A DNA stretch of 64,000 nucleotides from Puccinia triticina (lineage: Eukaryota > Basidiomycota > Pucciniomycetes > Pucciniales > Pucciniaceae), in contig NC_070564.1 of assembly GCF_026914185.1 (NCBI RefSeq), positions 992,001 through 1,056,000 of the forward strand, in the 5' to 3' direction. The translations under genes and the position numbers were made by a program. Of the stretch, positions 10,363 to 25,600 are shown in pieces. How positions within the stretch are numbered: the stretch's first letter is position 1; each line of letters starts with the position of its first letter. Below the pieces are notes generated by a model. It made no database searches. It had not been told where the DNA came from and was given only the letters and a program-made list of their open reading frames with translations.

Positions 10363-10425
10363 GTATTTCCTATAAAGCTTGGACCGGAGAAATTTTTTAA
10401 ATTTTGTTGTTTGCGCTTAGTATGG
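10363..10425 (+). repeat. Left terminal inverted repeat of the Tc1-like element
   Basis: It begins GTATTTCCTATA, continues AAGCTTGGACCGGAGAA and AAATTTTGTTGTTTGCGC, and ends TTAGTATGG. The reverse complement of 25526-25600 matches over this whole length. The only indels are a 3-bp gap and a longer A/T tract; one base differs (TTTGCGC versus TTCGCGC). A TA dinucleotide (10364-10365) sits at the border, as expected for Tc1/mariner target duplication. Confidence 0.85.
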
Positions 10426-11158
10426 GGTTACAGTTCAACTGATGGGGTATTTTTTCTGGATTAAACCCATCCAACCTGTCAAAGTTTGTGACATGTAAAT
10501 CAAGTTCGCCAATTGGCAATTGGCGAGGCCGCCTTCCCACGCAAACTTTGAAGCAACTCTCCCATCACATAAACTGTAAGTCGTTTCCTCCCAGCTATCT
10601 CATTTCCTCAACACCGCCCCCGTCCCCCATTCAGAATCTGCCCCCCCAGCCCCCCCCCCCCTCAGAACGGAATGCCCAGATTTTGGAACTGATTCCCCAG
10701 CTGAATCGCGGATGGTTTACGTACCGTATGATCCACAGATCAAGGCTGTTGCGGTCAGAATGTTGATTGAGGGCCATACCCGGGACTTCATCCAAAGCAC
10801 GCTAGGCCATCAAATCTCAAAACAGTCGTTCAATTGGTGGCATTATATCTATTGTCAAACCAAATCAGTTGTCCGGAATCCGGAGGAGTACAAGCTCCTT
10901 GGTCGCCCCAGAACTTTGACCACCAAGGAGGCAGCCTTTATGGTCCAGCTGGTACGTGACGAGCCCGGTTTATTCTTGGACGAGTTACGCGAGCGACTTT
11001 ACGACTCCAGTGGCACTCTACTTATTATGAGTGCCGTTCATGAGAACCTTGTCAACCACTTATCAATAGCATTGAAGAAGGCCGAGACGCTCAACTCAAA
11101 GAAATGCCTAGTCAAGAAGTTCAGATACATTGAGAAAATGCAGTTCTACCCTGCAAAC

Positions 11159-11939
11159 TGTTGGAATTCGTCTTATGACACAAACTCTCGAAAGAGAAAA
11201 ATTCCTGGTGAGCGACATGTGTTTCACATGTACTCATGGAAGTTAAAAAACTGAAAGATTTTTCTTTCATGTGCAGATTCAAACTGTTCCGTGATGGAAC
11301 AGCCGATTGGCAAAAGAGCAGTATGCTCGATGATCAAAGACTATGATGTCATTGATAGCGAAGACCGAGAATCATCGAACTCAAGGTGAGTTAATGATTC
11401 TAATCCTGTTCAATGGTCAACAAGAATCTAATGAATTCCTCTTGACATCGAACTCAAGAATAAAGCTATCTAAAGTCGAAATCAACAATAAGTTGATAAC
11501 TCGGATAACTTCACCTGGTGGTGAGTTAAATGATTATTAAAAGGAATATTCTATTGAGATGAAAGGAAACTAATAAACAGTTTATAATAAACTGTCTGAA
11601 CTATTAGTTATTGATCTCGAAGAAAAGGCCTAACAGATTTCCTTATTAAATCTTGTACGACGTTATTCAACTTAAAGTAATAACGCTTTATCACTGATTC
11701 ACTATCAAAACTGTCGTGTGCTAACAAGTAGCATCTTTGTTTCTTGGTCATAAGATTATTACTCAGCCTCGTTTACCTCAAGAATATTTTTCTTTATATA
11801 CTATTAAATAACCGATAGCCAACAGATTTTATCTGCCTTTTAGGTATAAAGATATTTTCATTCTTTCTCATTGTATTCTTAGCACACTTTATACTTATAA
11901 AAATAAAAATAATACCTTTTAGTTTTCTGAATTCTTTCA
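11159..11939 (+). repeat. 5' LTR of the copia element
   Basis: Starts TGTTGGAATTCG and ends GAATTCTTTCA. It matches the 3' LTR at 772 of 781 positions with no indels. Confidence 0.95.
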
Positions 11940-12026
11940 GATTTACAGTCTCGAGACTCTCATCAGCGATCTCGAAATAACTACGTTTTTGGATCAATTA
12001 AAAGGCAGATTTAATCAGCTATCGCG

Positions 12027-23593: not shown

Positions 23594-23764
23594 TAGGAGG
23601 AACACGCGCTGGAGATTTATTTCAAAGTATGGCTCAGGAGCCTGATGGATGTGAAACAGAGACAGAGATAACAGCATACAAGGATAGATAGGGCACAAAC
23701 AATCACAATCACGGTAACAGAATATGGAGGATAGGGCCAGAAACACAACTTTTCTTGAAGCTAG

Positions 23765-25299
23765 CTAAATATCAGTCCTTGTAGCTAAATATTGCTCATA
23801 CTTACTGACATTGTTAATCAAAGCGGTCACAACACCTAATGTCAAGCCAAACCCTTTGATCTCAGCCCAAGAGAGAGAAGAACCTTTGCCAAAATATTTG
23901 TGGGACAGGATATCGTTGGTTAAGAGGGCTGCATGAACCGCAGGTATGTCGCGGAGTTGTAAATACTGTAAATATTCAATTATTGGAGGGTCCATCGCTG
24001 GATTACTGTCCGACGGAGGTGCAGGGGGCGGAGCTGATACCGCAAGCCGGGATGATGATGACACCTCATTAGCATGCAATCCAACCTTGGCCGCGATGGC
24101 GTCCGCAATAAACTGTTGCAACGCGGAATCGGATAGCAAAGGTTGTGGTGGTTTGTTGTCCAGCTTGGGCTTCTTAGAACCTCGATTGCGGTAGGGGAGC
24201 AGAGAACGAGGAGGTGACGTCAAGTTAACTCCCAGAAGATCAGGATCAAGCTAAATGAGATACAAAGATTAGTTATGAAAGGGGCGGCGGCGGGATATTA
24301 GTGAGGGAGGCTTACAATACAATTTGCCCATTCCTGACATGCATTCATGGTGACTATGATGAACTTGTTTGGATCCGCAGGGTTGATGAAGACCGGGGTG
24401 TTTGGGTTGTAATCCTTGTTTAGAGAGCAGTTATCGAGAATCTCACGCATTTGAAAATTCACATTGTTCCAGTCTTTGGGGTCGATTTCCTTGTTGTCTA
24501 CAGCTGTTCCAGTAGAATCATCACTGTCATCAACTCCCGCCTTGCGCTTGAGGGCTTTTTTAGTCTTGGCCACTTGTTGGTACTTTGCGCGTTTGGCCAA
24601 GAGGTCCGCCTGCTGTGCACGTTTGAGCACAGCCACCGGATTTGTCATTCGGAGTGTCAAGCAAGCCTCCAGGTTTTTCACAGTAGTGGTAAGAAACATA
24701 TTGATCCATAGTTGATAAGAGTCCGCGTTGATGGTCTTGAACCAGTCAGATTTGTGCCATCCCTTGACTCGGGGGATGCTAGCAAACCAGTTCAGCTCAT
24801 ATTTTTTCTTCTTGATTGCGTCCTTGACAATACTACCTGTATTAGGAACCACCTCAACACAACCGGCCACCACAAGCGCTTGAAACTGGTTGAGGGAAGT
24901 TTTGCCTGGAACAATAGTCATGACAAAGCCTTGTTCGCCTGGGACTGGCTCCCATATCTTCTTGTTGTTCTTGGCTCGGGTGGATATGAAGAGCTTGAAT
25001 GTTGTCGACACATCTATTTGAGTTTGCTAAGGAAGCACATATTGACACAATCAATATTAAGTATGTAGGGGGTCAAATCAAACCAAGAGCGAGGGAAACT
25101 CACTGGCTCGGATGGAGTTTGGCTTCTATTTTTCAATGGTTGACGACGCGTGTTCACCTTCCCGGATTGCGGCGCTGGCGATGTCGGATCTACATATTTG
25201 CGGCGTATTCCCCACGATTTCGGGCACGTGCGGAGCTGGGACGATTTCCGATATGTCTGGGAGAGGCGATTCGGGCATATCCGTCTGCGCTGTTGACAT
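23765..25299 (-). pseudogene. Passenger gene B of the Tc1-like element (SAM-like C-terminus)
   Basis: Three exons on the minus strand (25299-25104, 25013-24316, 24250-23765) give a 459-codon frame with one TAG at 25128-25126, codon 58. The start at 25299 opens MSTAQTDMPESPLPD; an upstream in-frame ATG at 25383 is possible. The N-terminal domain reads TTFKLFISTRAKNN, then PGKTSLNQFQALVV. A middle part has WHKSDWF and a Lys-rich segment (KKALKRKAG). Then come VFINPADPNKFIIVT and CQEWANCI, LTSPPRSLLPY, and a C-terminal SAM-like part (about 385-459: IPAVHAALLTNDIL, LSWAEIKGFGLTLG). I recall many similar proteins of unknown function in Puccinia genomes. It is convergent with gene A. Confidence 0.65.
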
Positions 25300-25525
25300 T
25301 GAAGCGATTTTGGCTGATGTTGTCCGGGGAAGCAGGTATGGTTGGATGGGCAGATTGAGGGCTGGTTGGATGGGTGGGAACATTCAGGCCGGCATCTGTC
25401 AGATAGTGAGTGACCCAAAGTATTTGGAAATGATGCGGATACCGTGAGAGTGTGTCATGCATCAGCCGCATAAATGGGATTATGTCACAGGGCAGAAACT
25501 GGAAGCTTCAGACGCATACATATCT

Positions 25526-25600
25526 CCATACTAAGCGCGAACAACAAAATTTAAAAAAAAAAAAAAATTCTCCGGTCCAAGCTTTACATATAGGAAATAC
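25526..25600 (-). repeat. Right terminal inverted repeat of the Tc1-like element
   Basis: Reverse complement of the left repeat, with a longer A-tract and three extra bases. It begins CCATACTAAGCGC and ends TATAGGAAATAC. TA at 25598-25599 marks the border. The DUF1776 ATG lies 26 bp further on. Confidence 0.85.

Follow-up and report, generated by a model that had tools for sequence, protein, structure and literature searches.

Can a transposon of the Tc1/mariner superfamily, typically a single transposase gene between two inverted repeats, carry two further genes that move with it? The question is raised by a locus in a 64,000-nucleotide stretch of the rust fungus Puccinia triticina (assembly GCF_026914185.1, contig NC_070564.1; C7:992001-1056000 in our numbering), hereafter the window. 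An earlier note, made from the letters of this stretch, had described an inverted-repeat element holding a DD34E transposase gene and a convergent pair of paralogous genes, A and B. Our results indicate that window positions 10366-25602 are a decayed, TA-inserting Tc1/mariner (IS630-Tc1) element, a dead copy, and that related 5.7-kb units have moved with A and B inside them.

Copies of the element and an empty site

Copies were located by searching the genome (122,823,596 bases on 18 contigs) with the proteins and the terminal inverted repeat (TIR). Five further copies were found, two on C2 and one each on C5, C6 and C18, all in the order TIR-transposase-A-B-TIR. They are 5707-5770 bp long, are 98.5-98.9% identical in pairwise comparison and have unrelated outer flanks. 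TA is present at both ends in 5/5, and A and B lie within the TIRs in 5/5. The longest open frames are alike in most of the five, A being shorter in one copy and the N-terminal part of the transposase in two.

Further information came from the insertion sites. When the flanks of the C6 copy are joined, they match across the junction at 26 places (of the 46 matches listed), 22 of them equal in length in query and genome and four off by one base. Allowing up to 3 mismatches, a 36-base pattern centred on this junction and holding a single TA was found in 76 copies of a repeat, one of them a perfect match; its reversed control was found nowhere in the genome. No empty site was found for the other four insertions, and at one of the two on C2 (C2a) the flank matches end at the junction. 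Since near-identical copies occupy unrelated sites and one of them has a paralogous empty site, we conclude that the 5.7-kb units, including A and B, have moved. Both checks proposed in the earlier note, several copies in the same order and an empty site with a single TA, gave the expected answer, the second for one copy of five (C6).

Diverged elements retain a fixed geometry. A 7.0-kb unit (C5:4490372-4497401) contains transposase, A-like and B-like matches, and a 3.5-kb unit (C15:3476984-3480482) contains the transposase and B only, with TIRs TATTATGATTCC...GCTTGGAC at both ends. Across lineages the TIRs share the pattern TA-TTGTnTTT...GCTTGGA, with variants chiefly at the left ends. Together with the five TA-bordered copies and the empty site, these units uphold the proposed joint travel of A, B and the element.

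Association of A and B with the transposase

Association was scored for 150 of 393 candidate matches to the N-terminal part of the transposase and for 150 of the 155 matches to its DDE_3 domain; all association counts are lower bounds. An A or B match lies within 8 kb of at least 76 of the 150 N-part matches (15 with both, 46 with B only, 15 with A only). For 74 neither was found at that distance, and the window's own copy is among them because nested inserts push its parts apart. Seen from the other side, a transposase match (N-part or DDE_3) lies within 8 kb of at least 63 of 93 A matches and 65 of 90 B matches, compared with 3.3% of positions picked at random from 16 of the 18 contigs. At least 87 of 131 A/B loci stand beside a matched transposase; as a control, 1 of 150 copia reverse-transcriptase matches lies that near these transposases. 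Seven transposase matches were added for their nearness to unpaired A or B and are excluded from the unbiased counts. The picture that would have spoken against joint travel, transposases never accompanied by A or B, or A and B mainly elsewhere, is not the one that these counts give. A and B as an invariable pair, by contrast, hold for the five close copies and are not obligatory in the family, given the B-only unit on C15 and the 74 transposase matches with neither gene.

Orientation was scored as well. Every B match downstream of a transposase (63 of 63) has the opposite strand to it, and two further B matches lie upstream. Among the strongest 30 A matches, 25 are paired, every one of these on the transposase strand. 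Of the weaker 63 A matches, 25 are unpaired, 7 share the strand of the transposase and 31 run against it; the latter probably represent further members of the A/B family. Identity to the window transposase rises with identity to window B (Spearman 0.60 for 57 of the 61 transposase matches that are paired; 0.37 without the closest matches, n=49), a sign of co-divergence that is only indicative, as both identities share one reference.

Paralogy, selection and predicted folds of A and B

Gene A (22036-23273, + strand; exons ~22036-22428 and 22487-23273) encodes an N-terminal domain paralogous to that of B, an NP...EWA motif, a linker and a putative C-terminal SAM-like domain. Gene B (23765-25299, - strand; exons ~25010-24310 and 24250-23765, with an uncertain first exon at ~25299-25165) encodes a PB1-like domain, the NP...EWA motif, a linker and C-terminal SAM-like helices. 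The genes lie tail to tail, both downstream of the transposase, their positions and convergence being as first described. The common architecture is likewise supported by profile comparison, in which A and B are paralogous over their length (hhalign probability 96.2, E 2.7e-9); compared alone, the N-terminal parts give a probability of 72 (E 3.3e-5) and the C-terminal parts an E of 2.1e-6.

Between the window and the C6 copy (synonymous divergence, dS, 0.8-1.3) the exons of A give ratios of nonsynonymous to synonymous divergence (dN/dS) of 0.16 and 0.27, the exons of B give 0.22 and 0.18, and the N-terminal part of the transposase gives 0.08. By this measure of coding sequence, A and B diverged under purifying selection. 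PTTG_28685 (97%) and PTTG_28686 (98%) are the public homologs of A and B, respectively, and two P. graminis proteins are 40% identical to B over 99%. Protein database searches with A and B returned Puccinia hypothetical proteins and two unnamed entries, and no host family. PTTG_28685, PTTG_28686, PGT21_050185 and others are probably transposon genes, not host genes.

In the predicted structure of B, residues 37-169 are modelled as a PB1-like domain with the ubiquitin-like PB1 fold, resembling the PB1 proteins aPKC, Cdc24, p62 and NBR1. PB1 domains are defined by a basic (type II) or an acidic OPCA (type I) cluster; inspection of B found a Lys close to the first strand that is invariant (K5 of A6) and, by eye, no acidic OPCA cluster. 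B has no Pfam PB1 match, and no PB1 chain appeared among its PDB sequence-profile matches. For A, the N-terminal part was modelled too poorly to be read, and a PB1-like domain is attributed to A solely by its homology to the N terminus of B. The SAM-like label given in the earlier note fares differently by method. Residues 280-353 of the predicted structure of A resemble SAM proteins (tankyrase, p63), which gives some support to a SAM-like domain in the modelled C-terminal part of A, less clear for B, but neither Pfam nor PDB sequence searches gave a SAM match for the C terminus of A. Otherwise, Pfam scans and PDB sequence profiles of A and B yielded weak, unrelated matches and no other annotated domain. 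Structure matches to RAD51, DisA, plexin, PI3K and staphylococcal Eap were taken as common arrangements, and those to superantigens (E > 0.08) were not accepted as relatives. In predicted fold, B residues 37-169 are like PB1-domain proteins and A residues 280-353 may be like SAM-domain proteins; convincing sequence similarity to either was not found.

State of the window copy and related loci

The facing TIRs of the window element (10366-10425 and 25526-25597) align with a score of 90, the maximum in 500 shuffles being 31. The inverted repeats and border TAs described earlier stand, with corrected limits. Comparison with other copies sets the right end at 25602 and its TA at 25603-25604; the right TIR (25526-25602, - strand) reads inward TTGTATTTCC...AAAGCTTGGACC, and the end itself TA followed by TTGTATTTCCTATATGTAAAGCTTGGACC. 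The left TIR (10366-10425, + strand) begins TTTCCTATAAAGCTTGGACC, its outermost ~5 bases being gone, and is preceded by a TA at 10364-10365. This TA also follows an abutting repeat that ends at 10363. The repeat (~9365-10363) belongs to a family ending CCCCCGGC(A/G)TG, and TA comes directly after it in 6/6 genomic copies examined (L003-L008). For this reason the left tip was probably cut off by a TA-targeting neighbour. The far end of this neighbour was sought by its reverse complement and none was found. On the other side, an ATG at 25626, 23 bp past the right end, opens a 272-codon frame (window 25603-26444) with no Pfam match; the insertion may lie in the 5' region of a host gene.

The transposase gene does lie inside the repeats, as claimed, but broken by insertions that the earlier account lacked. 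Its N-terminal part (10712-11158, + strand) is 79-85% identical to the five 5.7-kb copies. Its DDE part (20834-21484, + strand) is in two pieces, with a DDE_3 match (PF13358) at 21158-21445 (E 6.1e-14) and a second one at 20810-21115 (E 0.006) below the family cut-off; the genome-wide DDE_3 matches include C7:1012858-1013355, which lies in the window. Catalytic positions 2 and 3 are 34 residues apart, in agreement with the DD34E assignment, and the second catalytic Asp reads Asn (VLVCNNAPIH); the C6 copy has D, D and E. A Ty1/copia long terminal repeat (LTR) retrotransposon occupies 11159-17112 (+ strand) within the gene, with LTRs from 11159 and at 16332-17112 (775/785 identical, 98.7%), a 5-bp target-site duplication (TSD) CAAAC and an RVT_2 match (E 2.2e-48). 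An inverted repeat of 105 nt, its arms separated by 6 nt (12803-13018), overlaps the ends of two copia open reading frames (ORFs). Next come one or more inserts at 17143-20830 (- strand, right limit approximate), presumably Helitron-like, with a GGCGGC/GCCGCC hairpin that starts at 17143 beside CTAG, a PIF1-helicase fragment at 17312-18097 (- strand) and a 107-bp direct repeat at 18452-18665. Split by copia, followed by the PIF1-bearing stretch and with Asn for its second catalytic Asp, the window transposase is dead.

Several other loci resemble parts of the element. Beside the 7-kb unit (L089, 8596-9215), a short stretch between two inward TIR motifs, TATTGTGTTTTCC...GCTTGGA and TATTGTCTTTTCC...GCTTGGA, looks like a non-autonomous derivative. 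At C3:1192777-1194430, and in similar pairs on C4, C6, C8, C9 and C12, weak A matches (E ~1e-4 to 1e-3) are convergent with DDE_3 matches at a distance of 300-700 bp; here another lineage, having just one SAM-like accessory gene, is likely. At C12:4573438-4615410 two facing TIR matches of the family, separated by 42 kb, enclose fragments of A and B; this is probably a further copy with heavy nesting.

Discussion

What could A and B do for the element? We favour, at somewhat short of even confidence for the explanation as a whole, that the accessory module of this lineage self-assembles and acts with the transposase. The module consists of one or two paralogous genes downstream of the transposase, with B transcribed toward it and A, in the window's clade, in the same direction as it; a typical unit is 5.7 kb of TIR, DD34E transposase, convergent A and B, and TIR. 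Cut-and-paste at TA is the established activity of transposases of the superfamily, and both the five copies and the empty site support it in the present case. PB1 and SAM domains, mostly protein-protein assembly modules, associate head-to-tail or heteromerically, and because they are known for self-assembly, A and B would most likely co-assemble into a nuclear oligomer working with the transposase. Since the unit is about four times as long as a usual Tc1 element, such an oligomer could pair or protect its ends, or it could hold the transpososome together, and in this way aid transposition, as thought for the extra proteins of MuDR or of the ciliate TBE elements. Folds, conservation and fixed linkage are our grounds for supposing that A and B oligomerise and assist the transposase. 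The folds favour assembly modules instead of the DNA- or RNA-binding factors that were first suggested.

It is also conceivable, if somewhat unlikely, that A and B form a duplicated, polymer-forming scaffold pair, whose PB1-like and SAM-like filaments or condensates would gather transposase and ends and let units of 5-7 kb move and diversify. Rather unlikely, in our opinion, is that they are element-encoded regulators (a brake, copy-number control or anti-silencing), with convergent B possibly antisense to the transposase. The uniform convergence of downstream B agrees with this, and chromatin proteins and repressors, of which Scm and SATB1 were among the structure matches, can also contain PB1-, ubiquitin-like and SAM modules, but convergence by itself is no proof of antisense control. 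We judge it improbable that A and B are captured host genes, carried as cargo that serves the host or nothing while the transposase is independent of them. B-only elements and transposases with neither gene do exist, and 30/93 A and 25/90 B matches have no transposase within 8 kb (28 and 20 after the added transposase matches). However, the association keeps its geometry across diverged lineages, transposase and B identities rise together, both genes diverged under purifying selection and the protein searches reached no host family. Finally, that nested transposons placed unrelated genes between two TIRs by chance is suggested by the heavily nested window copy (copia, Helitron-like), but we reject it as hardly credible, since five 5.7-kb copies at unrelated sites agree in content and the copia control is contradictory to it.

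How does the arrangement compare with known systems? With a DDE_3 transposase, DD34E spacing, TA target duplication and TIRs, the Puccinia units are Tc1/mariner elements; the transposase is not their sole gene, a typical and not a defining trait, as A and B lie inside the TIRs. MuDR of maize is similar in that its TIRs enclose an accessory gene convergent with that of the transposase. It differs in its Mutator superfamily transposase, its long TIRs and its 9-bp TSD, and no PB1/SAM character is known for mudrB.

DD34E Tc1 elements share with the Puccinia units the DDE_3 domain, the 34-residue spacing, the TA borders and the TIRs, but are typically ~1.3 kb long with a single ORF (PMC7325037), whereas the Puccinia units span 3.5-7 kb and have one or two extra genes. 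Extra ORFs beside a Tc1/mariner transposase are found in ciliates (PMC12242761, PMC3464196). Besides the transposase, TBE elements of Oxytricha code for a zinc-finger/kinase protein and for one of 22 kDa in which no domains are predicted; both are reported to be under purifying selection, were proposed as accessory factors and were called surprising for Tc1/mariner (PMC12242761). In Paramecium, Sardine and Thon have a tyrosine recombinase and hypothetical ORFs, and Anchois has two hypothetical ORFs (PMC3464196). The passages used describe no paralogous PB1/SAM pair, and it is by these descriptions only that we set the ciliate elements apart. Rusts do have Tc1-Mariner elements according to a 2025 survey of their transposons, its consulted portion making no mention of accessory genes in them (PMC12210899), and our search of open-licence papers turned up no account of the arrangement in fungi. 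The distinct class proposed in the earlier note is thus anticipated in part, since TBE, Sardine, Thon and Anchois are ciliate Tc1/mariner elements with extra genes; as far as that search reaches, the fungal arrangement is new.

In summary, Tc1/mariner is the textbook minimal transposon, one gene and two repeats, and its plan is elaborated outside ciliates too, in a large lineage (at least 87 of 131 A/B loci by a transposase) whose one or two accessory genes, paralogous and under selection, have a fixed arrangement. If the PB1 and SAM folds hold, one can test whether a cut-and-paste element makes a self-assembling scaffold for itself.
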